Origin: Candidatus Methylomirabilota bacterium | Lineage (GTDB): Bacteria; Methylomirabilota; Methylomirabilia; Methylomirabilales; Methylomirabilaceae | Direction of reading: 5' to 3' | Length of the DNA stretch: 64,000 bases | Assembly (NCBI GenBank): GCA_003104975.1 | Contig: PQAM01000004.1 | Location: 62,001 to 126,000 of the forward strand | Shown: in pieces, positions 1 to 60,823 of the stretch | How the letters are laid out: every line of letters begins with the position of its first letter | How positions within the stretch are numbered: position 1 is the first letter of the stretch | Translations under genes and position numbers: made by a program | The notes under the pieces: model-generated | Told to the model about the DNA's origin: nothing | Databases searched by the model: none | Seen by the model: the letters and a program-made list of their open reading frames with translations, nothing else

Positions 1-627
1 CAAGAGATCCTGCGTGAGCAGCAGGCCAGACGCGTATTGTTGGTCAAGGTACAAGAAGAGAAGCAAGGTCATCTGGCAGCGGTGCGGGAACTGGAATCGG
101 CAGCCGGCGAGCTTCAGCGTCTCATCGCCCGCTTGCAGCGACAGAAGCGGCCGCAGGTCGGGCGGACACCGCTTCGCGTGCCGTCGCAGACACCCGGGCC
201 GCCTGACGAGTCGAATGGGCCGTTTGCATCGCTTAAGGGTCGTCTGCCCTGGCCGACGTCCGGCGCGCTTGCCTCGACGTTCGGCCGTCAGGAGCACGCA
301 CGATACAGGACGGTCACCTTCAACCGCGGTATCGAGATCACGGCGCCGGAGGGACAACGGATCGTGTCGGTCTTCGACGGCGTTGTCGTATACGCCGATT
401 GGTTCAGGGGATATGGCCGCATGATCGTCATCGACCACAGCGATGGGTATTATACTGTCTATGCGCACGCTGCGGAGATCCTCGTCAAGGTCGGCGATCG
501 GGTGACGAAGGGACAGCGCATCGCAGTGGTGGGTCACACGGGATCGGCGAACGGATCACAACTCTATTTCGAAGTTCGGTATCGGGGCGGGCCTCAGGAT
601 CCCGTCGCATGGCTTGCCCCCATGTGA
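1..627 (+). CDS. envC: EnvC-like murein hydrolase activator (5' truncated)
   Basis: The frame is open from base 1, so the true start lies outside the window. About 50 residues of Glu/Gln/Arg-rich coiled coil are followed by a basic Pro-rich linker and a C-terminal LytM/M23 domain (from about residue 80). Its core follows the EnvC pattern (IVSVFDGVVVYADWFRGYG, then VGDRVTKGQRIAVVGHTG, then LYFEVR). The zinc ligands of active M23 peptidases are not conserved: the HxGxD site reads NRGIEI and the HLHFE site reads QLYFE. It is therefore probably a non-catalytic activator of septal N-acetylmuramoyl-L-alanine amidases in the periplasm, as EnvC is. The gene lies just upstream of ctpA, a common pairing. 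The family is clear; the degenerate active site is read directly. Confidence 0.85.
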   Translation, partial: QEILREQQARRVLLVKVQEEKQGHLAAVRELESAAGELQRLIARLQRQKRPQVGRTPLRVPSQTPGPPDESNGPFASLKGRLPWPTSGALASTFGRQEHARYRTVTFNRGIEITAPEGQRIVSVFDGVVVYADWFRGYGRMIVIDHSDGYYTVYAHAAEILVKVGDRVTKGQRIAVVGHTGSANGSQLYFEVRYRGGPQDPVAWLAPM

Positions 628-706
628 TAGAGGGTCCAGGGTTAAAGGTGTGACGTCAGCAGGAGTTCTTACACCCTATCCCCTATCCCCTATACCCTCT
701 ACCCAG
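624..706. repeat. Inverted minisatellite element, envC-ctpA gap
   Basis: The left arm carries AGGGTCCAGGGTTAAAGG-like units. A spacer follows, then a right arm with three to four CCCTATC/CCCTATA units. The reverse complement of the right arm resembles the left arm, so the RNA could fold into a long imperfect hairpin. It fills nearly the whole gap before the ctpA ribosome-binding site. Confidence 0.7.
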
Positions 707-2112: not shown

Positions 2113-3174
2113 ATGGCACATCTGACGCTTGGCATTGAAACATCGTGCGACGAGACGGCAGCCGCCGTCCTTGAAGACGGCCGGCGCATCCGTTCTTCGG
2201 TCGTCGCCTCTCAGGATCTTCTCCACGCCCCCTACGGCGGGGTCGTCCCTGAGTTGGCCTCTCGTCGCCACATAGAGGCTGTCTGGCCGGTCGTCCAGGA
2301 GGCGCTGACCAGGGCACGGATCGGTCTTGACGATCTTGATGGGATGGCAGCGACAGCCGGACCGGGGCTGATCGGGTCCCTGCTGGTCGGTCTCTGTTTC
2401 GGAAAGGCGCTGGCCTTCGCCCGTCGTCTTCCGCTGGTCGCCGTCAACCACCTGGAAGGGCATCTCTACGCCGCCCTGTTGGATCACGAGGGCCTCTCGT
2501 TCCCCTTCACCGGCCTCATCGCATCGGGTGGCCACACCCACCTCTATCTGGCCTCAGCCCCCGGTGAGTATCGGCTGCTCGGTCGAACCAGGGACGATGC
2601 GGCCGGAGAGGCGTTCGATAAGGTGGCGAAGCTGCTCGGCCTCGGCTACCCGGGCGGACCGCGAATCGAAGAGTGGGCCGGAAAGGGCGATCCTGATGCG
2701 ATACGATTCCCGAGGCCGGCTCCTTCGCAAGGCGTCTACGATTTCAGTTTCAGCGGCCTTAAGACCGCCGTCGTCAATTACGTGAAGGGTATAGGGTATA
2801 GGGTTCAGGGTTCAGAAAGTCGTTCCCTAAACCCTAAACCCTTGACCCTAGACCCTAGTCTGGTGGCGGACATCTGCGCGGGATTTCAGGAGGCAGTCGT
2901 CGATGTGCTGGCTCGCGTCAGCCTGGCAGCGGCGCTGGCGTCAGGGTCTCGCCGTCTTGTCCTGGCCGGAGGGGTGGCTTGTAACGGCAGGCTCCGATCG
3001 AAGCTCTTAGCGTGTGCGGCGGCGGAGGGTATTGAGGTCTACTATCCCAGGCCGTCTCTCTGCACCGACAACGCCGCCATGATTGCGGCCGCCGGTTACC
3101 GTCGCCTCTTGCACGGCGAGCACGCCTCGCTTGCGTTAAACGCCGATGCCGATCTTGCACTCGGCTTGACATAA
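2113..3174 (+). CDS. tsaD: tRNA threonylcarbamoyladenosine transferase TsaD with in-frame repeat insertion
   Basis: Catalytic subunit (ASKHA fold) that transfers threonylcarbamoyl to A37 of ANN-decoding tRNAs; cytoplasmic, working with TsaB/TsaE. Family motifs are intact: IETSCDET at the N-terminus, metal ligands His113 and His117 in HLEGH, SGGHT, GPRIEEWA, FSFSGLKTAV, LAGGVACN and CTDNAAM. The 353-residue length is slightly above the usual 335-345. The excess is a peptide of about 24 residues (GIGYRVQGSES...PLTLDPS) between the FSGLKTAV helix and GFQEAVVDVL, encoded by an inverted minisatellite at about 2785-2862. The reading frame is preserved. The gene is normally essential, so the insertion is presumably tolerated in a surface loop. 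It follows ctpA by 42 bp. Confidence 0.95.
   Translation: MAHLTLGIETSCDETAAAVLEDGRRIRSSVVASQDLLHAPYGGVVPELASRRHIEAVWPVVQEALTRARIGLDDLDGMAATAGPGLIGSLLVGLCFGKALAFARRLPLVAVNHLEGHLYAALLDHEGLSFPFTGLIASGGHTHLYLASAPGEYRLLGRTRDDAAGEAFDKVAKLLGLGYPGGPRIEEWAGKGDPDAIRFPRPAPSQGVYDFSFSGLKTAVVNYVKGIGYRVQGSESRSLNPKPLTLDPSLVADICAGFQEAVVDVLARVSLAAALASGSRRLVLAGGVACNGRLRSKLLACAAAEGIEVYYPRPSLCTDNAAMIAAAGYRRLLHGEHASLALNADADLALGLT
2785..2862. repeat. Inverted minisatellite element inside tsaD
   Basis: The left arm consists of GGGTATA, GGGTTCA units and the right arm of CCCTAAA, CCCTTGA, CCCTAGA units. The arms are imperfect inverted copies around a spacer of about 12 bp. The length relative to the rest of the gene is divisible by three and contains no stop in the tsaD frame. 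It has the same architecture as the elements at 624-706 and 14880-14968. Confidence 0.85.
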
Positions 3175-3739: not shown

Positions 3740-4798
3740 CTACAATTTTACCTCGACGTTGGCCTTCGTCCTCAGGCCTTCGATCCACTCCTTGAATTTC
3801 GCCTCGGTCTTCTGGTCGAATAGAATGGCGCGCAGACGCTCCTTCACCTGGTCGAATGACAGGGTTCGGCCGGGAACGCGTTCTTCGACGACAATAAGGT
3901 GAAAACCGGCCGAGGTCGTAATGATGTCGCTGGGCTGGCCGACCGGCAGGGCGAACGCAGCCTCTTCCAGCTCCGGCGCAAGCTCTCCACGCTTCATGGT
4001 CCAGACCTCGCCACTCGAGGATGCCAGCGGACCTTCCGAGTATTGTTTGGCAACCGTGGAAAAATCGGTCCCCATCTTCAGACGCGCCTGCGCCTCCTCG
4101 ATCCGTTTCCTGGCCCGCGATTGATCGGCAGGTGTCGCCTGAGGCGAGACAGTCACAAGGAGATGGCGAATCTTGAATTGTGGGATTTCCGTGAATTGAT
4201 CCTGCCGCTGCTCGTAATATTGCTGGACCTCCTCGTCAAGCACCACAACCTTGGACCGTACCCGCCGGGACACCAGCTTCGTCAGCAGCACCTGTTCAGT
4301 AATTCCCCTCCGAAACTGCTCTTCACTCAGGAGTTCTCTCGACAGCGCGGCCCTGAGATCCTCGTCGCCGCTCAAACCGTTACGCTTCTTCAGCTCCTCA
4401 ATAGCGGTCTGAGTCTCTGCTGGGGTAACCTCAATGTTCTCCTTCTTGGCCTCCTGCAGTTGCAGCCGTCTGAGAATCAACTCATCCAGAATCTGTTGTT
4501 CGGTGCTGCGGAGCTGTCGCTCCCGCTCCATCCCCAACGTATTCTCGACGATTTTTCGGATCGCCTGAAGTCCTTCCTCCTGCACCTCGGTCAACGTAAT
4601 GACGTCATCGTTCACCACGGCAACGACGCGATCAAGGATCACCGCTTCGGCGCCCGACGCTGCGAAGATACTGAGCAGAAAGACGACAACAATCACAAAG
4701 GTAGGGTGTAGGGTGTAGGGTGTAGGGTGTAGGAATGCCCCGAACACATCCTGACGCCTGACGCCTGACGCCTGACGCCTGACGCTGTTCATCGGCAC
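3740..4798 (-). CDS. surA: SurA/PpiD-type periplasmic peptidyl-prolyl isomerase
   Basis: Periplasmic chaperone/PPIase of the SurA-like parvulin family. From its first ATG (4798) it has 352 residues: a signal peptide (about 34-52, ending GAEA), a SurA N-terminal domain with ILDELILRRLQLQEA (about 105-120), and one parvulin domain (about 200-310; IRHLLV, YSEGPLASSSGEVWTM, GFHLIVVEERV). The first 33 residues (RRQASGVRRQ, TPYTLHPT) are translated from two tandem repeat arrays at 4699-4790 and precede the signal peptide. The true start may therefore be GTG at 4696, giving 318 residues and a normal signal peptide. The ATG start overlaps the mfd stop by 10 bp, so mfd-surA look co-transcribed. Confidence 0.85.
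   Translation of the reverse strand: MPMNSVRRQASGVRRQDVFGAFLHPTPYTLHPTFVIVVVFLLSIFAASGAEAVILDRVVAVVNDDVITLTEVQEEGLQAIRKIVENTLGMERERQLRSTEQQILDELILRRLQLQEAKKENIEVTPAETQTAIEELKKRNGLSGDEDLRAALSRELLSEEQFRRGITEQVLLTKLVSRRVRSKVVVLDEEVQQYYEQRQDQFTEIPQFKIRHLLVTVSPQATPADQSRARKRIEEAQARLKMGTDFSTVAKQYSEGPLASSSGEVWTMKRGELAPELEEAAFALPVGQPSDIITTSAGFHLIVVEERVPGRTLSFDQVKERLRAILFDQKTEAKFKEWIEGLRTKANVEVKL
4699..4790. repeat. Two adjacent tandem arrays at the surA 5' end
   Basis: About four copies of a GTAGGGT unit (4700-4732) and about five of a CCTGACG unit (about 4750-4787), separated by a spacer of about 17 bp. Both lie in the extreme 5' part of the surA reading frame. Confidence 0.9.
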
Positions 4799-7700
4799 CC
4801 CTCAAGCCGCGACAACAGCATCTGCGCCGTCGCAACCTTATCGTTGTCGTCTGCCGCGTATTCCAGCGTGTCGTACCCCGCACCGCAAATCCCCCCGTGC
4901 CCTCCTTTGGTAAAGGGGGGGTGGGGGGATTTCGGGATGTAGCGCAGCCGACCGCGCTCTTCGCGCAGCAATGCGGCGACCTTGTCCGAAGCCAGGGGCG
5001 GCGCCTCGTCAAATACGATGCGAATCGTCTTCCCCGCGGCGTCAACCTCTCGGATATGGAGTGTCCGAGCCGCGATCCTGAGCGTCATAGCGGTCAACAG
5101 CCGTTCGGTCTCACGGGGAGGCTCGCCAAAGCGATCGACCAACTCCTCCCGAAAGGTCGAGATCTCCTGAGGCGCCGAGAGCGCCGCCACCCGTTTGTAG
5201 AGCCGGAATCGAACATTGGGATCCTCTACATAGGTCTCCGGTAGGTAGCCGTCCGCCTCCAGCCTGATGGAGGGTTCGACCGGTTCGACCGCCGCTTCAC
5301 CCTTTAACTCTTTGACCGCCGATTCGATCAGTCGGCAGTACAGATCGATGCCCACGGCGGCGATCTGACCATGCTGCTCCGGTCCAAGCAGATTGCCCGC
5401 GCCCCTGATTTCCAGGTCCCTCGCCGCTACCTTGAATCCGGCGCCCAGTTCGGTCAGCTCCGCAATGACCTGGAGCCGCTTCTTGGCCACCTCGGACAGC
5501 GCCGCCTCCTTCGGGACCAGGAGATAGGCGTACGCACGATGTTTGTCCCGACCGACCCGTCCACGAAGCTGATAGAGCTGCGCCAGCCCCATGGCATCGG
5601 CCCGATCGATGATGATGGTGTTGGCGGTACTCACATCCAGGCCGGATTCAATAATCGTGGTGCACAGCAGGACATTGCACTTGCCGTCGTAAAAGTCGCA
5701 CATGATCCGTTCCAGACGCTCTTCCGGCAATTCGCCGTGGGCCACGGCAAGCTTCGCCTCTGGGACCAACCGCGTAATCAGACGCGCAACGCGCTGGATA
5801 GTTTCGACGCGGTTATGGACAAAGAAGACCTGTCCCCCTCTGTCCAGCTCGTGTTCGATCGCCTCTTTGATGAGAACCGGGTCGAACCTGGCGACCGTCG
5901 TCTTGATCGACAGGCGGTTCTCCGGCGGGGTCTCGATGGTACTGATATCCCGAACCCTCAGCATCGACATGTGGAGGGTTCGCGGAATCGGGGTGGCGGT
6001 CAGTGTCAAGACATCGACCTGCCGTCGCAGTTGCTTCATGCGCTCCTTGGCCGCGACGCCGAAGCGATGCTCTTCATCCACCACCAACAGCCCCAAGTCT
6101 CGAAAGTGAACATCTTTTTGCAGCAGACGATGGGTGCCGATCACGATATCGACGGTTCCCTCGCCCACGCCACGCAGGATGTCGCGCTGCTCCTTGCGGC
6201 TGCGGAAACGCGATAACATCTCGACCTTGACCGGGAAGCCGCCGAACCGCTCGGTAAAGGTCTGCGTATGTTGGAGGGCGAGGACCGTGGTCGGCACCAG
6301 GACCGCCACCTGCTTCCCGGCGATGACCGTCTTAAAGGCGGCCCGCATCGCGACCTCGGTCTTCCCGTAGCCCACGTCGCCGCAGATCAGGCGGTCCATC
6401 GGCCGGTCCCGTTCCATATCGGCCTTGACATCGGCGATCGCCTGGAGCTGATCAGGCGTCTCCTCATATGGAAATCCGGCCTCGAACTCCCGTTGCCACG
6501 GCGTATCGGGCGACAGCGCATGCCCCTTGATCACCTGTCTGGCCGCATACAGCGCGAGCAACTCCTGAGCCATCTCGCGGACGGACGCCTTCACCCGCTC
6601 CTTCGCCTTGGCCCACGAGGTGCCCCCCAATCGGTCGAGGGGGGGTGGATTGCCGTCGGCGCCCGCATACCGATGGATCAGATGCAGTTTGCCGGTCGGC
6701 ACATAGAGCTTGGCGTGATCGGCATAGACGATGAGCAGGTAGTCCCCCTCGGTCCCGCCCACCGCAAGCTGCCGCAGTCCTTTGTAGACGCCGATCCCGT
6801 GATCCTCGTGAACAACGAAATCGCCGTACGTCAACTCCTGGTAGGAGGCAAGGGGGGAGACCTCCTTGGGTCGCGAGCGGCGGGGCGGGATGTGGCGGGT
6901 CCCGAAGATCTCGGCCTCGGTCACATAGGTCAGCAACGCCTCATCCAGGTGGAAGCCGCCGCTGAGCCCGCGAGACAGAATGATGATCTCGCCAGACAAC
7001 GCCATTCCGTCACCCACAGAGGCCGCGACGTCGTGTTCGTTCAGGACGTCGGCCAGGCGCCGACCCTGGGCCTCGCTCCGACACACCAGATGAATTCGTC
7101 GACCCTGCCGACGCCATTCCTTGAGGTCCCGCACGACCTCTGTCATGCGTCCGTGATAGGCCGAGATCGTCCGCACTTGAACGCTCACAACCGTCTCTTC
7201 TCCAAGCCGATGAGCCGGGAACAGCTCTTCCACAAAGATCCGCGGTCTCACGGCGAGCCTCTGCTCCACGTCGCGCCAGTCGAGGAGGGAGGTGGGCGAC
7301 GCGGCATCGTCCGCTGCAGATCGAAGCCCGGTCGGATCGACCAGGACCCATAGCGCATCAGGCGACACATACTGCAGAAGATCGGCCGTCGCCTCCACGA
7401 CCTGCAGACCCATGCCACCGGTCGATGGCGCTTCTCTTACGGGTAGGACGGGCACCTGTTCGACGGAGCGGACCGACCGCTGAGTGTCCGGATCGAATGC
7501 ACGGAGCTCAAGCAGTTCGTCACCGAAGAATTCGGCGCGCACGGGCAGGTCCGATGCCTCGCCACGACTCAGATCGGGTGTCAGAGGGAACAGATCGAGC
7601 AGGTTCCCACGCAGGCTGTATTCACCGCGCTCCGTTACCTGATGCACTCGCCGGTACCCGCCCGCCTCGAAGGCGGTAATCAGTTCTTCCCGTGCGATAA

Positions 7701-8121
7701 GACGTCCGACGCACAGTGTGACGGCAGTTCCCAGAAGGTCCGACGGGGACGACAGGCGTTCGCGTGCGGCGCGAAGAGAGACCACCGTAAGATCCAGCGC
7801 CTTGGTCGCAAGACCCGCGAGGCAGGCGATCCGCTGATACCTGGTCTCCGGGTCCTCATCACGTTCAGGCAAGAAGCCTACCGAGCTGCGGCAGAAGAGC
7901 TGCAAATCCTTCGCCAACACCTCGGCCTCGGCAGATGACGAGACCACGATGACGAGCGGACGTCGCACCCGTCGGGCGAGCCGGGAAAGGATCAACGCCT
8001 TTGAGGCCCCAAATAGACCGGTGACCGACAGCGTCTCGTCCCCGCTGTCCAGTCGATCCGCAATCTCAGCGATCTCAGGGATCAGCAGATCTTCCGACGA
8101 CTCTAACGATCGTATGGCCAT
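4789..8121 (-). CDS. mfd: Transcription-repair coupling factor Mfd
   Basis: A 1110-residue ATP-dependent translocase that removes RNA polymerase stalled at lesions and recruits UvrA. The UvrB-like N-terminal module is followed by the RNA-polymerase interaction domain (GDFVVHEDHGIGVYKG, about 435-455), then the RecG-like helicase: Walker A GDVGYGKTE (about 585), DEEH box VVDEEHRFG (about 680), TATPIPRTL and QLRGRVGRDKHRAYAYLL. Near the C-terminus a peptide KSPHPPFTKGGHGG is encoded by a palindromic repeat (4886-4936) inserted in frame in the last domain; the usual family sequence does not contain it. The gene lies upstream of surA on the same strand. Confidence 0.96.
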   Translation of the reverse strand: MAIRSLESSEDLLIPEIAEIADRLDSGDETLSVTGLFGASKALILSRLARRVRRPLVIVVSSSAEAEVLAKDLQLFCRSSVGFLPERDEDPETRYQRIACLAGLATKALDLTVVSLRAARERLSSPSDLLGTAVTLCVGRLIAREELITAFEAGGYRRVHQVTERGEYSLRGNLLDLFPLTPDLSRGEASDLPVRAEFFGDELLELRAFDPDTQRSVRSVEQVPVLPVREAPSTGGMGLQVVEATADLLQYVSPDALWVLVDPTGLRSAADDAASPTSLLDWRDVEQRLAVRPRIFVEELFPAHRLGEETVVSVQVRTISAYHGRMTEVVRDLKEWRRQGRRIHLVCRSEAQGRRLADVLNEHDVAASVGDGMALSGEIIILSRGLSGGFHLDEALLTYVTEAEIFGTRHIPPRRSRPKEVSPLASYQELTYGDFVVHEDHGIGVYKGLRQLAVGGTEGDYLLIVYADHAKLYVPTGKLHLIHRYAGADGNPPPLDRLGGTSWAKAKERVKASVREMAQELLALYAARQVIKGHALSPDTPWQREFEAGFPYEETPDQLQAIADVKADMERDRPMDRLICGDVGYGKTEVAMRAAFKTVIAGKQVAVLVPTTVLALQHTQTFTERFGGFPVKVEMLSRFRSRKEQRDILRGVGEGTVDIVIGTHRLLQKDVHFRDLGLLVVDEEHRFGVAAKERMKQLRRQVDVLTLTATPIPRTLHMSMLRVRDISTIETPPENRLSIKTTVARFDPVLIKEAIEHELDRGGQVFFVHNRVETIQRVARLITRLVPEAKLAVAHGELPEERLERIMCDFYDGKCNVLLCTTIIESGLDVSTANTIIIDRADAMGLAQLYQLRGRVGRDKHRAYAYLLVPKEAALSEVAKKRLQVIAELTELGAGFKVAARDLEIRGAGNLLGPEQHGQIAAVGIDLYCRLIESAVKELKGEAAVEPVEPSIRLEADGYLPETYVEDPNVRFRLYKRVAALSAPQEISTFREELVDRFGEPPRETERLLTAMTLRIAARTLHIREVDAAGKTIRIVFDEAPPLASDKVAALLREERGRLRYIPKSPHPPFTKGGHGGICGAGYDTLEYAADDNDKVATAQMLLSRLEGCR
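4886..4936. repeat. Palindromic repeat translated as PPFTKGG inside mfd
   Basis: A near-perfect inverted repeat: AAATCCCCCC, then CCTCCTTTGG / TAAAGGGGGG, then GGGGGGATTT. This shape, translated as a (N/S)PPxPPFxKGG peptide, is a known widespread bacterial repeat. Here it adds about 17 codons to mfd without a frameshift. Confidence 0.85.
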
Positions 8122-10274: not shown

Positions 10275-11720
10275 CTAATGCGGAATGTGCTGCTCAAGAT
10301 GCTGCCGGGCAAGGAGGTGGCGGGCCGGCGGCAGATGCGTCAGAAGCGCCGCCAGGGCCAGGACGGCGATCACCAGGATCCACTCCAACCGCATGAACTG
10401 GCGCAGGCGCCGTCGGCCCGCGGCGGCTCGGTCGCGTCCCGTTCCGACAAGCCAGGCCCCACCAAGACGATCTATCATGTTCGCCAGTGGATGGCTCCCC
10501 ACGCCGCCAGGGTCTCGCATAAGCGGTAGGAAATAATACCTGTTTACGGCCGCCAGGACCAATATGAGCCCCATCAAGCAGATCTTCGCAACGAGCGTCA
10601 ATCCATAAGGGGTAGTGACGAGCGGCGGCAGCGACGCCACCTGCAGCCAAGCGTTGAAGAGCCCCGCCACGAACAGTGTAAACACGCAGTAGGCGGCCAT
10701 CCTCGAGAAAGGACGGCCTACTGCCGCGAGGCCGTGCGCCACCTCCTCCGCCCCGGAAGGCGCGACGAAACGCTGGAACAGAAATCCCAACGTAAAGAGT
10801 CCGCCGGTCCAGATGGAGACCGCAACCAGGTGGATCCAGTCGATAAGGACCGGCATCGACAGGTCTCCCCAGTGTGCGGCATGCCCGAACAGGGTCGTCG
10901 TCAGGGCGATGAACGCGGCTGCGACAAGGGAGAACATGATGGCTCGCTCGCTCTGCGGCGCAGTCGTCCGCCTGAGTCCCCACACGAGGGTCAGGAGCCC
11001 AATAAGGCCCATCCGGACCAGCCATACCGCACCGAAATGGGTCTGCCTGAGCACCACCGGGAGGCTAGCATGAATCTCGGCCAACCCTCTCTCGCTCATC
11101 ATCTGCGTCCTTAAAACGAGTTCGCCGACACTCGCCAACGCCACCAGCATAATAGCACTCAGCCCCAGGCGCCGGAACGGTTGCTCAACCGTCTCGAATT
11201 CCTGACGCGGGAGCGTAACCGACCGAATGATGAGCAGATGAAAGGCCAGCACGCCGATCAGCATCGAGAGCCCAATGAAGTTTATCCAGCGGACAAAGAG
11301 TTGCGGAAGCGTGGCGGGCGTGCTGGTGGCTCGTGGTCGCTCGTAAGAGCCAGGCCCGATGCTGAACGAAAGATCGCCTTTGGTGCGGTGGCCGTCGTGA
11401 TCGACAACGCTCCACACGATCCCGTATCGCCCAGCGGGCAGGGACGGAAGAGATGCCTCCAAGACGGTGTGGTCGGCAGGATTCACGCCCCCGTCCCCGT
11501 TATCGACCTGCCGGTTGTTTATATCGACCACTTTGATGTGACTGAAGGCGGGTTCCAGCCTTCCGTCGAACCACAACCTCACACGCGGGGGCGACGCCTG
11601 AAGCGCCCACCCTACCCGCGGCTCCGAGTGATCGGGGAAGGCATGGCCCCACGCCGTGGCGGCCGTAAGAAGCAGCGGGGCGGCTGTCAGCAGGACCGGC
11701 CATAGCGCTGATCTGTTCAT
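10275..11720 (-). CDS. copCD: CopC-CopD fusion copper protein
   Basis: A 481-residue membrane protein. After the signal peptide comes a CopC domain (about 25-125: HAFPDHSEPRVGWAL, DHDGHRTKGDLSFSIG, with N-terminal His and internal His-rich sites typical of Cu(II) binding). A CopD-type membrane domain of about eight helices follows (SVTLPRQEF, GDLSMPVLIDWIHLVAVSIWTGGL, FSRMAAYCVFTL). YcnJ-type fusions are linked to copper uptake or handling. Its ATG overlaps the stop of the CusA-like gene (ATGA at 11717-11720), so it is the last gene of the metal operon. Whether it imports copper or aids resistance cannot be read from sequence. Confidence 0.88.
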   Translation of the reverse strand: MNRSALWPVLLTAAPLLLTAATAWGHAFPDHSEPRVGWALQASPPRVRLWFDGRLEPAFSHIKVVDINNRQVDNGDGGVNPADHTVLEASLPSLPAGRYGIVWSVVDHDGHRTKGDLSFSIGPGSYERPRATSTPATLPQLFVRWINFIGLSMLIGVLAFHLLIIRSVTLPRQEFETVEQPFRRLGLSAIMLVALASVGELVLRTQMMSERGLAEIHASLPVVLRQTHFGAVWLVRMGLIGLLTLVWGLRRTTAPQSERAIMFSLVAAAFIALTTTLFGHAAHWGDLSMPVLIDWIHLVAVSIWTGGLFTLGFLFQRFVAPSGAEEVAHGLAAVGRPFSRMAAYCVFTLFVAGLFNAWLQVASLPPLVTTPYGLTLVAKICLMGLILVLAAVNRYYFLPLMRDPGGVGSHPLANMIDRLGGAWLVGTGRDRAAAGRRRLRQFMRLEWILVIAVLALAALLTHLPPARHLLARQHLEQHIPH

Positions 11721-14700
11721 CGCTTATCCGATTCGACGGCCGCCGGTCGGAACAGGTCGCCGCGCTCCAGGGCCAACTGTTGTCGGAAGGTCTCCTCCCG
11801 CTCCCAGCCGAACCGCATGAACAGGGTCGGCACGACGATCATGTTCAAGAGGGTGGAGGTGAAGAGACCTCCCAGAATGACCTGAGCCAACGGCCGCTCC
11901 AGCTCTTTTCCGGTCGCCTCACCGAACAGCAGAGGGAGCAGGCCCAACGCGGTCGAGGCAGCCGTCATCAGGATCGGCGCCAGCCGATCCTTCGACCCCT
12001 GGATAATCGCTTCCTCCTTCGCAACACCCTCAGATCGAAGGTGCCGATAGTGGCTGACCAGGATGATCCCATTGCGGGCGGTAATCCCAAAAACACTGAT
12101 GAACCCTATCAACGACGGAACGCTTGTGACCATCCCCGTAAGCAAGATGGCCGCCACACCGCCGATCAGGGCCAAGGGGAGATTGACCATGACGAGGAGA
12201 GCAGCGCGGGACGAGCCGAACGCTTTGTGCAGCATGAGAAAAATCCCGGTCACCGCAAGCCCGCCATACACCATCAGGACCCTCGCCGCCTCCCGTTCAC
12301 TTTCAAACTGCCCGCCGTACTCGATGAAGTAGCCGGCAGGAAGCTGAACCTCTCCGGCGAGCCTACGCTGGGCCTCATGAATCACGCTGATCAGATCCCG
12401 GTCCGCAACATTCGCCTGAACCACAATCCGCCGCTGCAACCGCTCCCGATTGATCATGAAGGGGCTGTTCACGATCTCGAGGTCGGCCACCAGTCGGAGC
12501 GGAACCTTTCGTCCCTCCGGCGCATCGATCAAAAGGTTGCGCATAGAGGCGCGGTCCTTGCGGGAGGTCTCGTCAAACCAGACGAAGAGATCAAAACCCC
12601 GCTGCCCTTCCACAACTCGGGACACCGATCTCCCACCGAAGGCCACTTCGGTCATCTCCAGAATAGCGCCGACGTCCAGACCGAGACGGGAGGCCTCGTC
12701 CCGATCGACTGTAATCCGTACCCCCGGAACATTGATGAGGGGTTCGAGGAGCAGGTCCGTGACCCCATCGATCTCCCGCATGATCTGCTCGACCTGCCGC
12801 CCCTTTTCTCGCAGGACAACCAGGTCGGGGCCATAGATCTTGATGGCGATCTGGGCCCGGATACCCGAGAGGACCTCGTCCAACCGGTGAGCGATGAACT
12901 GGCCCAGTACGGTGGCCACACCGGGAATCTTTTCGAGATGCTCGCGGATGGCATGGAGCAGCAGCTCCGGATCGCGCGTGCTGTATCGAATCGCCATATC
13001 GAATTCACTCACGTTCGGCGGCAGCGCCTCCTCGTCCAGTTCCGCCCGGCCGGCCCGCTGAGAAACGGAGACAACCTCGGGGTGCTGTTTCAGCATGCGG
13101 ACGATGCGCTCCCCCACGCGCATCGACTCCGCAAGGGAAATCCCCGGCAACATCGTCACCTGCAGGATGAAATTCCCTTCACGAAACTCGGGGAGAAAGG
13201 AGCGGCCGAGGAACGGGATAACGGCCAGGCTGGCCGAGATCAGAAGCATACAGACAGTTATCACCTTCCAGGGTCGGTGGAGCGCCGGGCGCAGGAGCGC
13301 TTCATAGACTCGCTTCATGGCCCGGACGGTCAGACTCTCCTGTTCCGGTTGGGCCTCCCCGCGACGGATCAGAAGCATGGCGGCCAAAGCCGGAACCAAC
13401 GTAACTGCCACTACGAGCGAGGCGAGGATCGCAGAGACGTAGGCAAGCCCAAGCGGGGTGAAGATTCGCCCTTCTACCCCGCCCAAAAGAAAGATCGGCA
13501 TAAAAACGATCAGGACGATCCAGGTGGCATGGACTACGGCGTGCCGGATCTCTACCGACGCCTCATAGATCACCCTCAAGGGGGGATCGGGATAGACCTT
13601 CTCCTGGTTAAGCCTGAGCCGGCGGACGATATTCTCGACGTCCACAATCGCATCGTCCACGACCTCACCGATGGCAATAGCCAGTCCTCCCAGGGTCATG
13701 GCATTGATGCCGATTCCGAACGCCTTGAGCACCAGTACACCGGAGATCAACGAGGTCGGAAGCGCCGTCAAGGTGATCAGCGATGCCCGGACATTAAAGA
13801 GGAACAAGATGACGACGATACTGACGACCACCACCCCCTCCAGGATCGCCTGGCGCAGGTTGGCAATCGAGGACTCGATGAAGCTCGCCTGACGGAAGAC
13901 CTGCGTATTCAGTTCGACCCCCGGCGGCAGTGTCTTGCGAATCTCCTCCAGCGCCTGCTCCACCTGGTACGTAACCGTCAAGGTATCGGCCCCGAAGAGC
14001 TTCGAGACCGTACCGATCACGGCAGGCTTACCCTCCCATGTGGCGTCTCCGCGCTTGAACTCCGGACCGAAGCGGACCGTCGCCACCTGATCCAATCGGA
14101 TCGGCGTCCCGCCCCGCTCTGCCACCTTAGTCTGTCGAAGCTCGTCAAGCGACGAGATGCGACCGGCGCCGGTGATGACGAACTCCTGGCCCGGCGTTAC
14201 CAGAAAGCCTCCAGGGACACTGACGTTCGCCTGTCTGACGGCATCAAGGATCTCCTTGGTGGTCAGACCGTATTGAAACAGCTTGTCTGAAGACAGCAGC
14301 ACCTGATACTGCTTGACCTCCCCGCCGATGGAGACCACTGACGCTACCCCAGGAATCGCCAGCAGGCGATTACGGATCACCCAGTCCGAGATCGTTCGAA
14401 GGTCCATCAGGGAGACGCTATCGCTCGTGAGCGCATATTTGACCAGCCAGCCCACCGCAGATGTGATCGGGAGCATCATGGGGCTCTTGGTTCCCGGTGG
14501 GAGACGATCCTTGACCGCCTGGAGCCGTTCATTGACGAGTTGTCGCGCCGAGTAGATGTTCGTTCCCCACTCAAAGACGACAATGACACTCGACAAGCCG
14601 GCGGTCGATTTCGATCGGATCACCTCCACCCCCGGAGTTCCATTAATAGCGGACTCGATCGGAAAGGTAATGAGCAACTCCACATCCTGGGGTGGCAGGC

Positions 14701-14869
14701 TGGGGGCCTCGGTCTGAATGACGACCTGTGGTGGAGCGAACTCGGGGAAGACGTCGAGCGTGATCCGGCGTAGCGTGAACAGGCCGACAATCAGCACCAC
14801 CACGAAGGCGACCACTACGAGGATACGATTGGTCAATGACCGTTCAATAATCCAGGCAAACATCATCAC
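11717..14869 (-). CDS. cusA: CusA/CzcA-family heavy-metal RND efflux transporter
   Basis: A 1050-residue inner-membrane proton/metal antiporter with the duplicated RND layout (large periplasmic loops after TM1 and TM7). The TM4 segment GGLAIAIGEVVDDAIVDVENIVRRL carries the Asp/Asp/Glu pattern of the HME-RND (heavy metal) subfamily. Other matches are PPQVVIQTEAPSLPPQDVE, GFISVFGITARNGIILVSH and AASTALGLLPLLFGEATGKELERPLAQ. Several ATG codons occur at the start; the exact one is uncertain. It lies between the adaptor gene and copCD, overlapping the latter by 4 bp. No outer-membrane factor gene is in this operon, so a TolC/CusC partner must come from elsewhere. Metal specificity (Cu, Ag, Zn, Co) is not certain. 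Confidence 0.92.
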   Translation of the reverse strand: MMMFAWIIERSLTNRILVVVAFVVVLIVGLFTLRRITLDVFPEFAPPQVVIQTEAPSLPPQDVELLITFPIESAINGTPGVEVIRSKSTAGLSSVIVVFEWGTNIYSARQLVNERLQAVKDRLPPGTKSPMMLPITSAVGWLVKYALTSDSVSLMDLRTISDWVIRNRLLAIPGVASVVSIGGEVKQYQVLLSSDKLFQYGLTTKEILDAVRQANVSVPGGFLVTPGQEFVITGAGRISSLDELRQTKVAERGGTPIRLDQVATVRFGPEFKRGDATWEGKPAVIGTVSKLFGADTLTVTYQVEQALEEIRKTLPPGVELNTQVFRQASFIESSIANLRQAILEGVVVVSIVVILFLFNVRASLITLTALPTSLISGVLVLKAFGIGINAMTLGGLAIAIGEVVDDAIVDVENIVRRLRLNQEKVYPDPPLRVIYEASVEIRHAVVHATWIVLIVFMPIFLLGGVEGRIFTPLGLAYVSAILASLVVAVTLVPALAAMLLIRRGEAQPEQESLTVRAMKRVYEALLRPALHRPWKVITVCMLLISASLAVIPFLGRSFLPEFREGNFILQVTMLPGISLAESMRVGERIVRMLKQHPEVVSVSQRAGRAELDEEALPPNVSEFDMAIRYSTRDPELLLHAIREHLEKIPGVATVLGQFIAHRLDEVLSGIRAQIAIKIYGPDLVVLREKGRQVEQIMREIDGVTDLLLEPLINVPGVRITVDRDEASRLGLDVGAILEMTEVAFGGRSVSRVVEGQRGFDLFVWFDETSRKDRASMRNLLIDAPEGRKVPLRLVADLEIVNSPFMINRERLQRRIVVQANVADRDLISVIHEAQRRLAGEVQLPAGYFIEYGGQFESEREAARVLMVYGGLAVTGIFLMLHKAFGSSRAALLVMVNLPLALIGGVAAILLTGMVTSVPSLIGFISVFGITARNGIILVSHYRHLRSEGVAKEEAIIQGSKDRLAPILMTAASTALGLLPLLFGEATGKELERPLAQVILGGLFTSTLLNMIVVPTLFMRFGWEREETFRQQLALERGDLFRPAAVESDKR

Positions 14870-14879
14870 TCCAAGCAGG

Positions 14880-14968
14880 GGTTAGGGGTTGGGGGATAGG
14901 GGGTAGGATTCAAAGGAAAACCCCAGACCTTGTTCCCCAACACCCAACCCCCAACACCTATCCCCTAT
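14880..14968. repeat. Inverted minisatellite element between cusA and cusB
   Basis: Left arm of GGGGTTA/GGGGTTG/GGGGATA/GGGGGTA units, a spacer of about 27 bp, then a right arm of CCCCAACA/CCCAACCC/CCTATCCCCTA units. It fills nearly all of the space between two co-directional genes, so the operon mRNA would carry the hairpin. Confidence 0.9.
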
Positions 14969-14969
14969 T

Positions 14970-16280
14970 TCAATGTGTGTGTCCGCCCAACGTCGGTCCG
15001 CTGCCTTGGGTGGCGAGCCATTTCGCATAGAGTTGACGGCTGCCGTCCGTGACAACCCGATCGCCGGCGACGAGACCTCGCTTGACCTCAGCGAAGCGGT
15101 CATTCCGGCTGCCCAGTTCGAGGTCTGCGCGGAGATAGACGCCGCCCCGTTCGACAAAGGCAAACTCTGATCCTTCGGCGCTGATAAGGGTCTCAACTGG
15201 AATCGTGAGACTCTCGCGCTGCCCTCCCACGATCACGTAGACTTGCGCAAAAAGATCCTGTTTCAGCAACCCCCGCCGATTGACGACCTCTGCCCATACC
15301 GGAATAGTCCGCTTCGTCGGATTGACCGTCGGACTAATAAAGCTGATTTTCCCCTCAAAGACCTCATCGGGGTACGCGGCGATCGTTACTCGGACCTTCT
15401 GTCCGAGCTGCAACATAGGTAACATGTCTTCAAAGGCCTCCCCTTCGACCAGCATGATGGAGGCATCAATAATTCTCATCAATGCGATGTTAGGCTCAAT
15501 CGCCTGGCCGATCACGACACTACGCTCGACGATCGTCCCGCTGATGGGGGCGGGCAGATGCAGCGTCGCCATCATCTGCTCCCCACGAATCCGCGCGATG
15601 GCCTGCTGAGGGAGACCGAGAAAGTTCAGTTGGCGCGTCAGGCTCTCGATCTCGTTCAGGATCTCCCGGTGCTGGTGTTCGATCTTCAGCAACTCCTTTC
15701 TGGCCACGATCTCCCGTTCCACGAGCGCTCGCGTTCGCTCCAGATCCATCTTCGTTAGCGCCAGCCGATTCTCTGCCTGAATCAGGCTCAACTCCAACCG
15801 TTCCAGCTCGACGCTTTTCACATCCAGCAGATCATCGCCCCGCCTGACCCAGGCGCCGAGCGGCGCATGGACACTGAGCACGATACCCGGCACGCGGCTG
15901 GTCACCTGCGCCACTCTGTCGGGATGCGGCCTGACAATCCCATTCAGCTTGCGAACATCCTCAATCGGCCGGAGCTGTGCCACCTCCGTCCTGAGACCGA
16001 TGTTCTCACGTTCTTCCGTGGTGAGTCGAACGCCGACCGACGCCTCGCCGGCGCCAACCGTCTCCCTGTGTTCTCCGTCAGGTGGCGCCTGGCCATGCGG
16101 ATGTTCGTCCCGGCCATCGCGCTGTTCTGCCTTACCCGTCTCGTGCGGCGCAGGTGCGGTCTCTTGCTTGCCGCATCCGCCCGCCACAACGACGAATGCC
16201 AGCAACGCGATACCAACACGTCGCCCTACTTGCATCATAGATTGCCCATCAACAACGTTATGCATACTCGACGATATCAC
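14970..16280 (-). CDS. cusB: CusB-like RND periplasmic adaptor lipoprotein
   Basis: HlyD/membrane-fusion family, up to 436 residues. The likely start is the internal Met16 (MQVGRRVG), giving a lipobox VAGGC. A His/Asp/Glu-rich segment (about 45-75: HETGKAEQRDGRDEHPHGQ) is followed by a barrel/lipoyl half (VTSRVPGIVLSVHAPLGAWVRRGD), a coiled coil (about 165-230), the second lipoyl half (LPAPISGTIVERSVV), a beta-barrel and a membrane-proximal domain, ending GGHTH. The His-rich tails fit metal binding. It is the first transporter gene of the operon and links the RND pump to an outer-membrane channel. Confidence 0.88.
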   Translation of the reverse strand: MISSSMHNVVDGQSMMQVGRRVGIALLAFVVVAGGCGKQETAPAPHETGKAEQRDGRDEHPHGQAPPDGEHRETVGAGEASVGVRLTTEERENIGLRTEVAQLRPIEDVRKLNGIVRPHPDRVAQVTSRVPGIVLSVHAPLGAWVRRGDDLLDVKSVELERLELSLIQAENRLALTKMDLERTRALVEREIVARKELLKIEHQHREILNEIESLTRQLNFLGLPQQAIARIRGEQMMATLHLPAPISGTIVERSVVIGQAIEPNIALMRIIDASIMLVEGEAFEDMLPMLQLGQKVRVTIAAYPDEVFEGKISFISPTVNPTKRTIPVWAEVVNRRGLLKQDLFAQVYVIVGGQRESLTIPVETLISAEGSEFAFVERGGVYLRADLELGSRNDRFAEVKRGLVAGDRVVTDGSRQLYAKWLATQGSGPTLGGHTH

Positions 16281-31332: not shown

Positions 31333-31437
31333 AGTGACTAGTAAATAGTGACTACGAGTGAATAGTAACGGGTGAAGAGCCAAAGTACCTTTTTGACCAA
31401 TCACTAGCCACTGATTACTCGTCACTCAATTTCAACG
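31333..31437. repeat. Inverted minisatellite element between tRNA-Asp and tRNA-Val
   Basis: Left arm of AGTGACT/AGTAAAT/AGTGAAT-type units, a short spacer, right arm of AATCACT/GTCACTCA-type units. The same design as the GGGTNNA elements but with another unit sequence. It lies within what should be one tRNA transcript. Confidence 0.75.
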
Positions 31438-33765: not shown

Positions 33766-34464
33766 CTAGCGCTCTGCTGTACCTATCCGGGCAGCACGAA
33801 CAACGTGAAGCAACGTCGATACGGCATCGGCCGGCTCATCCGCCGATATGATAGCAGAGATGGCGGCGACGCCGTCGGCGCCTGCCGCCATGACGGATGC
33901 GGCATTCGAAGCCGTGATTCCCCCGATACCAAAGATCGGCAATCGGGCCTGCGCCCTCACCTCCCTCAGCCGCGCGGGGCCGACGGGCGCTCCGTACGGT
34001 GCCTTGGACGGCGTCGGAAACAGCGGCCCGAATACAATGAAGTCGGCCCCCCCCTTCTCGGCCTCGATCGCCTCTTCAGGCGCATGGCAGGAGACGCCGA
34101 TCAGACGCGTCGGCCCCAGCAGGACGCGCGCCGCATCGGGCGGCAGGCTTGTTCTGGAGAGATGGACGCCGTCGATCGGCAGGGCCAACGCCAGATCGAC
34201 CCGATCATTGATGAGAAGGCAGGCGCCTTGCCCGTGAACAATGGGGAGGAGACGCTCCGCTAATTTGTAGAGATCCCGCGCCGAAAGATCCTTCTCGCGA
34301 AGCTGGACCGCCTTGGCCCCGCCGGCAAGCACTGTATCCACCACCGCCTCAAGGGACCGACCCCTCGTCTGAAATCGGTCAGTGATGACGTACAGACCCC
34401 ATGAGGAAGGGTGTTGGGGGTTGGGGGTTGGGGGTTGGGTTGAAGCGAATGTCCGAGGGTCCAC
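33766..34464 (-). CDS. thiE: Thiamine-phosphate synthase
   Basis: Joins HMP-PP and thiazole phosphate to thiamine phosphate; TIM barrel of about 232 residues. Motifs: LYVITDR, AVQLREKDLSARDLY, LLINDRVDLAL, DGVHLSRTSLP, IGVSCHAPEEA, DFIVFGPLFPTPSK and GIGGI. The N-terminus is unclear because a tandem GGGTTGG repeat (34405-34441) encodes TQPPTPNPQHP before LYVITDR. I use GTG 34464, which has AGGTG 7 bp upstream; a TTG at 34506 is an alternative. It is the last gene of the thi cluster. Confidence 0.9.
   Translation of the reverse strand: MDPRTFASTQPPTPNPQHPSSWGLYVITDRFQTRGRSLEAVVDTVLAGGAKAVQLREKDLSARDLYKLAERLLPIVHGQGACLLINDRVDLALALPIDGVHLSRTSLPPDAARVLLGPTRLIGVSCHAPEEAIEAEKGGADFIVFGPLFPTPSKAPYGAPVGPARLREVRAQARLPIFGIGGITASNAASVMAAGADGVAAISAIISADEPADAVSTLLHVVRAARIGTAER
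34405..34441. repeat. GGGTTGG tandem array at the thiE 5' end
   Basis: Four to five GGGTTGG-type units; translated as a Pro/Thr/Gln-rich N-terminal tail of ThiE. A single arm only; no inverted partner seen nearby. Confidence 0.8.
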
Positions 34465-34540
34465 GACTGCACACCTATCTGAAGCCGGCGGAAAGACGCC
34501 TTGCAACTTAACACTGAATACTTGAAACTAGGAACTGGTG

Positions 34541-58107: not shown

Positions 58108-59055
58108 ATGTCACTCCTGACGGGTCGTGCGGTTTCCCTTATCGTTGCGGCTTGTGCCGTCGTTGGAGCGATGATTCACTCGTCGACACCGGCAGAGGCG
58201 GCAAGGATTGTTGCGCTGAAGAGCGCCGATGTCGATGTCTACAATGAGGCGCTGGAAGGGTTCAAGAGCGCATCGCCGGGGTCCGCCATCATCGAATATG
58301 ACATGGAGGGAGACTTTCAGAAGGGCAAGAAGTTTCTGGCGCGACTGAAGTCCGGCGCCAAACCGGACCTCATCCTTGCGGTCGGGGTCTGGGCCTTGCA
58401 GGTTGTGGCAGAAGAAATACCAGACATCCCGGTTGTCTTCGCCATGGTGTTGAACCCAACGACTGTGATCGGACATGAGGCGCGCAACATTACCGGCGCC
58501 AGCATGAATGTTCCGATAGACCAACAGCTCGCCCTGCTGAAAAAGGTCTCACCCCAGGTTAAGAGGGTCGGTGTAATCTACGATCCTTCCAAAACCGGTT
58601 GGTTGGTAAGACAGGCCGAGCGAATCGCCAAAGATCAAGGCCTCAAGCTCGTCACAAAGACCATCACCTCGCCGAAGGAGTCGTTCGCCGTCCTCGATGC
58701 GCTGCAGGATGAGATCGATGCCCTGTGGATCTTACCGGATCTGACCGTTCTGGCGCCGGAATCGGTTCAGTATATGTTGCTGTTTTCGTTCAGACACAAG
58801 ATCCCTGTGTTGGGGCTCTCCGAAAACCAGGCTCGCATGGGCGCGCTCCTCGGCGTGTCCTTTGAAAGCGGGTGGGATATCGGAAGTCAGGCCGCGGAGC
58901 TGGCGAGCAGCATTCTGTCCGGTAGACGCACCGAAGAGATCCCATTTACCACAGCGCGGAAGGTGCGACTGACGGTGAATTTGAAGAGCGCCGGCAAGCT
59001 CGGCGTGCACCTTCCAAAGGAGATCATTGACCGAGCCGACGTGGTTATCCGATAG
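58108..59055 (+). CDS. ABC-type periplasmic binding protein (DUF534-like)
   Basis: A 315-residue exported binding protein. Signal peptide ends PAEAA; ARIVALKSADVDVYNEALEGFKSASPG and KRVGVIYDPSKTGWLVRQAERIAKDQGLKL match the TrpX/DUF534 class. No ABC permease or ATPase nearby; it is 38 bp before a histidine kinase gene, so it probably acts as the periplasmic receptor of that sensor. The ligand is unknown. Confidence 0.8.
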   Translation: MSLLTGRAVSLIVAACAVVGAMIHSSTPAEAARIVALKSADVDVYNEALEGFKSASPGSAIIEYDMEGDFQKGKKFLARLKSGAKPDLILAVGVWALQVVAEEIPDIPVVFAMVLNPTTVIGHEARNITGASMNVPIDQQLALLKKVSPQVKRVGVIYDPSKTGWLVRQAERIAKDQGLKLVTKTITSPKESFAVLDALQDEIDALWILPDLTVLAPESVQYMLLFSFRHKIPVLGLSENQARMGALLGVSFESGWDIGSQAAELASSILSGRRTEEIPFTTARKVRLTVNLKSAGKLGVHLPKEIIDRADVVIR

Positions 59056-59092
59056 TGTAGGCGGAACCGGGCGAGGGTATACGGGTACGCGA

Positions 59093-60823
59093 ATGATCAT
59101 CAGACAGCCGGCCAGATTTCGAACGAAGGTCCTTCTGTCGATTATTCCGATGATCCTGGCGCTCTGCGTCCTGTTCGGGGGGATGTCGCTGTACCAGCAC
59201 AACAGATTGTTGCACAGTGAGTTTGTAAAACGAGGCAAGACACTTGCCGGCAATCTGGCCGCCAGTGGAGAACTGGGCGTATTCAGTGAGGATGAACGGC
59301 TTCTCAATGCCGCGTTGCGCGGGGTGACCGGCGACGAGGACGTTGCCTACGTCTTTATCTATCGCGATGTTGGGACGCGTCTGATCGGCGGCGGCAAGGC
59401 GCTCGCGCAACCCGGTTTCGCAGCGGCCGTCGAAACCTTGAGCCCCGAGATCCGCGCACGGATACTCGCCGACCGCCAACCTGTCAGCAGAATCGTGACG
59501 GAGGTCGAAGCGGGGTCATTCTTGGAGTTTTACGCACCGATCCTCTCCACCGAAGTCCGCCTGGTTGAGGAACAGTACTTTGGGATACCCGATTCGACTC
59601 GAGATTCGAGTGAGAATCGGACGCGCGTCATTGGAATCGCAAAGGTCGGCCTGTCGATGCGCAACATTGACGCGCACTCAGCGTACCTGATTAAACTCTG
59701 GGCGGCTCTTTCCGTGATCTTTCTGGCCGCCGGCGCGCTCGCCGCATACGTCCTATCCAGGAAGATCACACAGCCGATCACCCGCCTGACGGAATCGACG
59801 ACACGGATGGCCGAGGGGCAGATTGAACAGGAGATCCCTGTCGATTCTCGGGATGAGCTCGGTACATTGGCAACGAGTTACAATGAGATGGCCAAGGCAT
59901 TGAAACGGACCTTGGATGAACGGGCACGGGTGGCCATGGAGCTTCGAGATCTGAACCGGAATCTGGAGGATCGGATCCGCGAGCGGACCTTCCAACTGGA
60001 AGAGACCAACCGTGAACTTGCGCGGGCGAGTCGTCACAAATCGGAGTTTCTGGCCAATATGAGCCATGAGTTGCGGACCCCCTTGAACGCGATCCTGGGC
60101 TTTACCGAACTGATCATCGATGGGGTGTACGGCGAGGTCCCGGACGAGTTGCGCGAATCGATCCAAGACATCCACATCAACGGCCGGCATCTGCTCAGGC
60201 TCATTAACGATGTGTTGGATCTTTCGAAAATTGAAGCTGGACAAATGCGGCTGAATCTGGGTGAATATTCCGTTCAATCATTAATCGATTCGGTGATCTC
60301 AGCAACACGGTCGCTTGCGGCAGAAAAGCAACTGGAGTTGACCGGTCAGGTTGAGTCGGATCTACCCGTGGTGTGGGGCGACAGCAAACGCATGACCCAG
60401 GTCCTGATGAATCTGGTCGGAAATGCCATTAAGTTTACCCCTGGGGGCGGCTGCGTGACGGTGACGGCGAGACGCGTGGCAAGTGGGAAGCGTGAAGTGT
60501 CAAGTACTGATCCCCCACCCTCTGTCCAAGACACTCAACACTCAACACTCAACACTTTCCCTCGGGATGAGTTCGTCGAAATTGCGGTGGCCGATACGGG
60601 AATCGGCATACCCGCTGAAGAGTTGAACAATATTTTCAGCGAATTTCGCCAGGTCGATAGTTCGATCACCAGGGAATACGGCGGAAGCGGTCTAGGACTC
60701 AGCATCGCCAAGCGATTGGTCGAGATGCATGAGGGGTCTATCTGGGCGAAGAGTCAGCTCGGAAAGGGCTCGACCTTCCATGTCAGAATCCCGCTTCGGA
60801 CCCGATGGGATGGTGGCCTGTGA
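59093..60823 (+). CDS. Membrane sensor histidine kinase with in-frame repeat insertion
   Basis: A 576-residue hybrid-less sensor kinase. TM1 about 12-34, periplasmic sensor of about 165 residues (CHASE8/dCache-like), TM2 about 205-225, HAMP, coiled coil, HisKA with SEFLANMSHELRTPLNAILGF (His325) and HATPase: NLVGNAIKFTPGG (N box), ADTGIGIP, GGSGLGLSIAKRLVE. Residues of about 462-490 (ASGKREVSSTDPPPSV..) come from an inverted repeat in the turn between N box strand and DTGIGI; the frame is kept. It is followed by a receiver gene and an NtrC-type gene. Confidence 0.9.
   Translation: MIIRQPARFRTKVLLSIIPMILALCVLFGGMSLYQHNRLLHSEFVKRGKTLAGNLAASGELGVFSEDERLLNAALRGVTGDEDVAYVFIYRDVGTRLIGGGKALAQPGFAAAVETLSPEIRARILADRQPVSRIVTEVEAGSFLEFYAPILSTEVRLVEEQYFGIPDSTRDSSENRTRVIGIAKVGLSMRNIDAHSAYLIKLWAALSVIFLAAGALAAYVLSRKITQPITRLTESTTRMAEGQIEQEIPVDSRDELGTLATSYNEMAKALKRTLDERARVAMELRDLNRNLEDRIRERTFQLEETNRELARASRHKSEFLANMSHELRTPLNAILGFTELIIDGVYGEVPDELRESIQDIHINGRHLLRLINDVLDLSKIEAGQMRLNLGEYSVQSLIDSVISATRSLAAEKQLELTGQVESDLPVVWGDSKRMTQVLMNLVGNAIKFTPGGGCVTVTARRVASGKREVSSTDPPPSVQDTQHSTLNTFPRDEFVEIAVADTGIGIPAEELNNIFSEFRQVDSSITREYGGSGLGLSIAKRLVEMHEGSIWAKSQLGKGSTFHVRIPLRTRWDGGL
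60478..60566. repeat. Inverted minisatellite in the histidine kinase gene
   Basis: Left arm AGTGGGAAGCGTGAAGTGTCAAG, spacer, right arm of three CACTCAA units; imperfect inverse of the left arm. In-frame, about 29 codons. Lies in the HATPase domain. Confidence 0.75.

Follow-up and report, generated by a model that had tools for sequence, protein, structure and literature searches.

Inverted heptamer arrays in a Methylomirabilota genome: probable IVP-less forms of dispersed elements resembling the intervening sequences of 23S rRNA genes

Tandem heptamer repeats are a puzzling kind of bacterial sequence known since about 1990; those of cyanobacteria (STRR) are mostly intergenic, like the elements described here. 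The intervening sequences (IVSs) of 23S rRNA genes are another puzzle; the protein family PF05635 (23S rRNA intervening-sequence protein, IVP) folds as a four-helix bundle and is related to Avd. To our knowledge the two puzzles have been kept separate, and neither has an agreed origin. Are they really separate? The 23S IVS of Coxiella burnetii has terminal inverted repeats and an optional PF05635 ORF, occurs in ORF-less short forms, and carries tandem heptamers, (GACAGAT)3, next to its end (PMC4990558). The elements described here share its optional ORF and its short forms, and most of those that carry the ORF share its inverted repeats. Unlike it, they are scattered in dozens of copies per genome, both between protein genes and within them, and their arms are of about four heptamers, with a unit that varies by element.

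The heptameric G-rich repeats of Xanthomonas and Nostoc likewise have period 7 and a preference for four units, with about 70 convergent pairs in X. axonopodis, but there each species has one unit, the repeats were read as quadruplexes, and a link to IVP was not made (Rehm et al. 2015, PMC4692102). Families of four tandem heptanucleotides lie within and between genes of Geobacter metallireducens, where another class occurs in opposed pairs; they differ from the present elements in having one consensus per family and were interpreted as regulatory sites (PMC2700814). The TAACTGA repeats of cyanobacteria are also tandem heptamers, mostly intergenic (PMC4679880), but they and STRR are described as direct repeats, inverted pairing being rarely noted. 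The literature that we searched, which lay mostly outside subscription journals, brought IVP and heptamers together for Coxiella only, and no statement of a link between the two was found in it.

The genome under study (G000; 3.0 Mb, 19 contigs, completeness 99.99%) was compared with congeners, 15 genomes in all, among them the complete genome G006 (2,752,854 bases). The window is the whole 64,000-nucleotide stretch analysed, C4:62001-126000. It holds nine period-7 arrays of score 10 or more, against a mean of 0.17 and a maximum of 2 in order-2 Markov shuffles. All the arrays that a preliminary description had listed are present. The features are as follows.

624..706, strand not assigned: two-armed element (degenerate left arm; right arm 674-704) in the gap that separates an M23-peptidase-like gene (37-627, +) from an S41-protease-like gene (724-2070, +)
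2113..3174, + strand: host gene, which we take to be tsaD, with an element in its variable loop
2786..2815, + strand: left arm, AGGGTAT/AGGGTTC x4, within the TsaD gene, in frame
2825..2858, - strand: right arm within the TsaD gene
4701..4733, + strand: arm AGGGTGT x4.7, within the N-terminal coding part of a SurA-like gene
4750..4785, - strand: opposed arm with a different unit, AGGCGTC x5.1 (minus-strand reading)
14877..14907, + strand: left arm, G-rich
14936..14968, - strand: right arm
31333..31437, strand not assigned: degenerate two-armed element of AGTGNNN type, its arms read by eye and below the array threshold
34409..34439, + strand: left arm GGGGGTT x4.4, within the N-terminal part of a ThiE-like ORF
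34505..34538, - strand: partner of the 34409 arm, a degenerate right arm with AGTNNNN units
60476..60505, + strand: left arm within a histidine kinase gene (59027-60823, +)
60531..60556, - strand: right arm ACACTCA within the histidine kinase gene

Two of these, at 4699-4790 and 34405-34441, had been taken for single arms. The first proves to consist of the two opposed arms given above, and the second has its partner at 34505-34538, where the G006 ortholog shows a clear right arm. Unlike an IVS, all the window elements sit in or between protein genes and none is in an rRNA gene; two of them, 2785-2862 (TsaD) and 60478-60566 (histidine kinase), lie in frame within conserved genes, and another, 4701-4785, falls in the N-terminal coding part of a third such gene. 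Neither an IVP gene nor an IVP relic was found in the seven window elements. Alignment of orthologous loci, which the preliminary description had proposed, does reveal empty sites: the 14877-14968 element occupies the gap between a membrane-fusion (MFP) gene (14970-16280, -) and an RND permease gene (11717-14869, -), and at this junction it is absent in G001, G004, G005 and G012. The 624..706 junction and the histidine kinase site carry heptamers in congeners too, with other units. The histidine kinase gene itself is open through the element in G000, while the matches in G003, G006, G012 and G013 contain stop codons (L232-L235).

The abundance of such arrays extends beyond the window. A period scan of 464 kb of G000 gave 44 arrays at period 7, between 0 and 3 at each of the remaining periods in the range 4 to 13, and none in shuffles (period 14 gave 27 further matches, mostly harmonics); there were 19 period-7 arrays in 400 kb of G006 and 31 in 376 kb of G013. 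Tandem heptamers occur at many intergenic places, as do STRR and heptameric SSRs. The pattern AGGGTNNAGGGTNNAGGGT has 56 matches in G000 and none when reversed; it was found in 14 of 14 congeners, is sparser across the order, and is gone in the other family sampled. Arms have about four units (median 30 bp). The unit GGGTNNA, which had been proposed as typical, is indeed the commonest class, but AGTGNNN, AGGCGTC and others occur too. The inverted design is real: over many arm pairs the mean best-rotation match is 5.0/7 in inverted orientation against about 3.0/7 in direct orientation, and 33 of 47 pairs run from a G-rich to a C-rich arm, none in the opposite order. The inversion is significant across many elements, whereas exact arm-to-arm complementarity in single window elements is not when arm composition is kept.

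Because the design is constant and the units are not, the preliminary description ruled out that all elements derive from a single copied sequence, which agrees with our finding that units differ both between elements and at orthologous sites. In its view they looked like products of a process, slippage and fold-back synthesis, rather than of transposition. Minisatellites born in this way at permissive sites, with no mobile element, would fit the likeness of units within an array, with its blocks of identical units, and the fact that a site changes its sequence while keeping its period. A case in point is the SurA-like gene, where congeners show AGGCGGC at the position of the 4750..4785 arm: three congeners have the left arm AGGCGGC, and G000 has AGGCGTC x5, like a change spread through the array. 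We nevertheless regard this explanation as unlikely. Slippage does not appear to be active, given that period 7 alone is enriched and that, between genomes about 99.8% identical, 12 of 14 array comparisons were unchanged and two showed substitutions only, with no change in copy number (the four substitutions in 440 array bases are too few to judge whether arrays mutate faster). Nor does slippage predict the association with IVP or the target duplications described below. Fold-back copying is a possible way for an arm pair to gain a matching unit, but as an interpretation a pure mutational process captures only part of the picture.

Sites are conserved much better than units. Among 774 orthologous gaps in four congeners (about 80% flank identity), which are not fully independent because sites are shared between genome pairs, the presence of an array is strongly shared (odds ratio 22, p 4e-31). 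The units of 42 orthologous arm pairs, in contrast, are no more alike than random ones (4.50/7 vs 4.37/7, p 0.13). The TsaD loop illustrates both points: nearly all 15 congeners have heptamer arms at the same codon position, mostly two arms (one in G001), and the units differ by species (AGGGTNN, AGCGTTC, AGCAGTC, AGGAGGC, AGGTGCG and others). The spacer contains other palindromic elements in several species. A third such element, GGGGCAGGGCTTGCCCTGCCC (translated VGAGLALPK), is nested between the TsaD heptamer arms at L143, L144 and L145 (G002, G011 and G007). These nested elements indicate that the loop collects several kinds of insert. G001 and G005 are without arrays at several sites occupied elsewhere (L208, L209, L218, L221, L253 and L261), so element load differs strongly within the genus.

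This turnover bears on the proposal that the arrays are functional structures: a conserved RNA hairpin, a terminator, or G-quadruplexes as suggested for Xanthomonas (PMC4692102). In its favour, many units are rich in GGG, a quadruplex needs at least four of them, and the TsaD element of G000 folds well (z -5.3). That said, the z value at the TsaD site ranges from -5.3 to +1.5 across congeners, units at orthologous sites are not conserved, and the presence of GGG makes no difference to array length (median 30 bp with and without it, p 0.43). A G-quadruplex would need a G-tract in every unit, which not all the arrays have, and with length independent of GGG we rejected it as a general explanation; functional structures as a whole are very improbable. 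It must be added that an RNA stem that is not kept at the TsaD site across congeners also counts against the reading that we prefer, set out below.

A search with PF05635 gave 35 matches; 12 of the 15 congeners have at least one, and G000 has five. The proteins match PF05635 with E ~1e-39, while their match to bAvd is weak (E 1e-4, below cut-off); among solved structures they come closest to XCC0516 of Xanthomonas campestris (PDB 2gsc), so that species encodes an IVP. In G006 arrays are present and the PF05635 search found no IVP gene. Most IVP genes are flanked by arrays. At 25 of 27 loci in the genus an array lies within 200 bp of the PF05635 gene on at least one side, and at 16 of 27 on both sides, compared with 6% and 0.05% of random positions. 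Long forms with unit-matched arms around the IVP ORF, which is the layout of a long IVS, occur in G000 and in the genus.

The same holds far outside the genus. We sampled 20 PF05635 loci, all on plasmids, from seven phyla (Cyanobacteria, Alphaproteobacteria, Gemmatimonadota, Bacteroidota, Bacillota, Spirochaetota and Chloroflexota). Of these loci 17 have a period-7 array upstream and 14 have one downstream, the unit differing from locus to locus; a few have 8-bp units, and some, such as those of Picosynechococcus, Monoglobus and Calothrix 7716, show a weak array on at least one side. Segments near the gene carried an array in 31 of 40 cases (9.2 kb) against 7 of 40 for far segments (21.3 kb), arrays being about ten times denser near IVP. 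IVP genes of cyanobacteria have heptamer arrays on both sides, and the parallel with STRR drawn in the preliminary description is apt. In Azospirillum one IVP locus (L373) interrupts a 23S rRNA gene and is thus a classical IVS; its arms are inverted heptamers that form a long uninterrupted stem.

The two arms of an IVP locus also belong together. An inverted 9-mer is shared between the locus's own flanks at 42 of 47 IVP loci, whereas swapped flanks gave a mean of 7.5 and a maximum of 16. Pairing energy is moderately better for own than for swapped arms (mean z -1.4), and 14 of 46 loci beat all 40 swaps. Solo elements gave a less clear picture: when arms were permuted, p ran from 0.0 to 0.78 depending on genome and threshold. 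In G000 the coupling was weak (p 0.09 to 0.78), which, set beside the IVP-carrying elements, is a point against the reading below. Units agree in orthologous IVP-carrying elements (mean match 6.1/7 above 80% IVP identity) and not in orthologous solo arms. This points either to arms that are maintained as long as the IVP gene is there and rewritten after its loss, or to re-use of sites. A code linking IVP sequence to unit was considered and rejected, units agreeing only between orthologous IVPs above about 70-80% identity.

Long and short forms occur at the same sites. One junction has IVP with arms in G000 and G013 and a short two-armed element in G006; a second has IVP in G013, G010 and G001 and solo AGGGT elements in G000 and G006; a third, between type II secretion genes (GspF-GspG-like), has IVP in G007 and a solo array in G000. 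At this third junction G013 and G006 retain N-terminal IVP relics, VGIQRVEDTQAWQE and VDIRRVKDIRIWQEA respectively, to be compared with the intact VGIQRFEDIQAWQEA, and in G009 an element between arrays has the first and last parts of IVP fused across an internal deletion. Arms and IVP thus form one unit in many genomes, and IVP is lost while the arms stay. Internal-deletion derivatives of a longer element are found in relatives, not in the window.

One unit class of G009, AGGCTGA, sits in longer elements with constant ends, GTAACTAC...GTAGTTAC, two of which (G004, G013) contain a PF05635 gene. An 8-bp target duplication with at most one mismatch flanks 8 of 11 elements of this GTAACTAC family, including both IVP-carrying copies (L344 and L364), compared with 1% for swapped flanks; for L344 and G009_C26 we placed the boundaries by eye, guided by the conserved ends. 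This family was inserted with target duplication, and for it at least the view that a process and not transposition made the elements fails. GTAA ends and 8-bp duplications recall IS66. The family resembles MITEs in its terminal inverted ends, its target duplications and its internal-deletion derivatives; the other unit families, unlike MITEs, have no definable fixed end sequence, and fixed ends and target duplications were seen in the GTAACTAC family only.

Could IVP be a late guest, that is, are the arrays an independent filler into which IVP elements prefer to insert? Arrays are many-fold more numerous than IVP genes, and alleles with and without IVP at one site fit either direction. But the target duplication of the GTAACTAC family lies outside the arms, also in the IVP-carrying L344 and L364, so the arms belong to the element; matched arms accompany IVP even inside a 23S rRNA gene; and the relics and internal deletions show that IVP has been lost. 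We therefore think it improbable that IVP came second. Another known way to spread short, dispersed, inverted and intergenic elements is that of REP-like sequences moved by a RAYT (Y1) transposase. No Y1_Tnp match was found in the 99.99% complete G000, and in congeners there were five less complete or unrelated patterns, which leaves this mechanism scarcely credible here.

The elements are probably IVS-like selfish elements that have dispersed outside rRNA genes, and those in the window their short, IVP-less form. For the window elements the link to IVP would follow from their shared design and from the same-site cases elsewhere. Against the reading speak the lack of IVP relics in the seven window elements, the arrays of G006, in which no IVP gene was found, and the confinement of fixed ends and target duplications to the GTAACTAC family. 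The full form would consist of two heptamer arrays, left and right, in inverted orientation with an IVP gene (PF05635) between them, and the short form of the arms without the gene. In RNA the arms would pair into a stem to be cut by RNase III, as in rRNA IVSs; we infer this excision here by analogy, and if transcript arms are indeed cut in this way, insertion between the genes of an operon would be harmless or tolerable. The element would move with help in trans, probably so because no transposase or reverse transcriptase travels with the IVP gene. After loss of the gene the arms would drift and be rewritten unit by unit, in frame where they are coding, and within coding sequence only in-frame copies that no longer fold strongly would persist.

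Avd of diversity-generating retroelements has a fold homologous to that of IVP, a homology also noted in PMC10053308, but reverse transcriptase genes are not, as a rule, beside IVP genes. RVT_1 is missing from 7 of the 15 genomes, and reverse transcriptase was rejected as a required partner. A candidate diversity-generating retroelement does exist in G013 (contig C28), where an RVT_1 match at 5886-6506 adjoins an IVP/Avd-like match at 6680-6994.

What is new on our best reading is the link between heptamer arrays and IVSs, the arrays being a dispersed, IVP-less form of an IVS-like element. Should heptamer repeats and IVSs prove to be the short and the long form of a single element, the origins of both would become testable. 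The reading would also provide a case of inserted selfish DNA tolerated in frame within an essential gene. A wider generalization, which we offer tentatively and consider somewhat less likely to be right than wrong, is that the heptameric repeats of Methylomirabilis, cyanobacteria, Xanthomonas, Geobacter and other bacteria are the arms of one dispersed class of IVS-like selfish elements. IVP, an RNA-binding protein resembling Avd, would drive this class, and a step in which a single heptamer is copied into both arms would keep giving rise to new units.

Armed IVP elements are also found between CRISPR genes on cyanobacterial plasmids (cas6/cas4, cas10/cmr3 and cas2/cas1; L366, L371, L380 and L382). 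From this position, CRISPR-linked IVP genes may be passengers, and the preferred reading, if true, would recast in the same way PF05635 genes found between other operon genes.

The window also contains a different palindromic repeat family (CCCCC..TTT..AAA..GGGGG). One member is an insert translating to KSPHPPFTKGGHGGI in the C-terminal part (about 4870-4940) of an Mfd-like gene (4789-8121, -), and further members are nested at the TsaD site in G005 and at other array sites of congeners.
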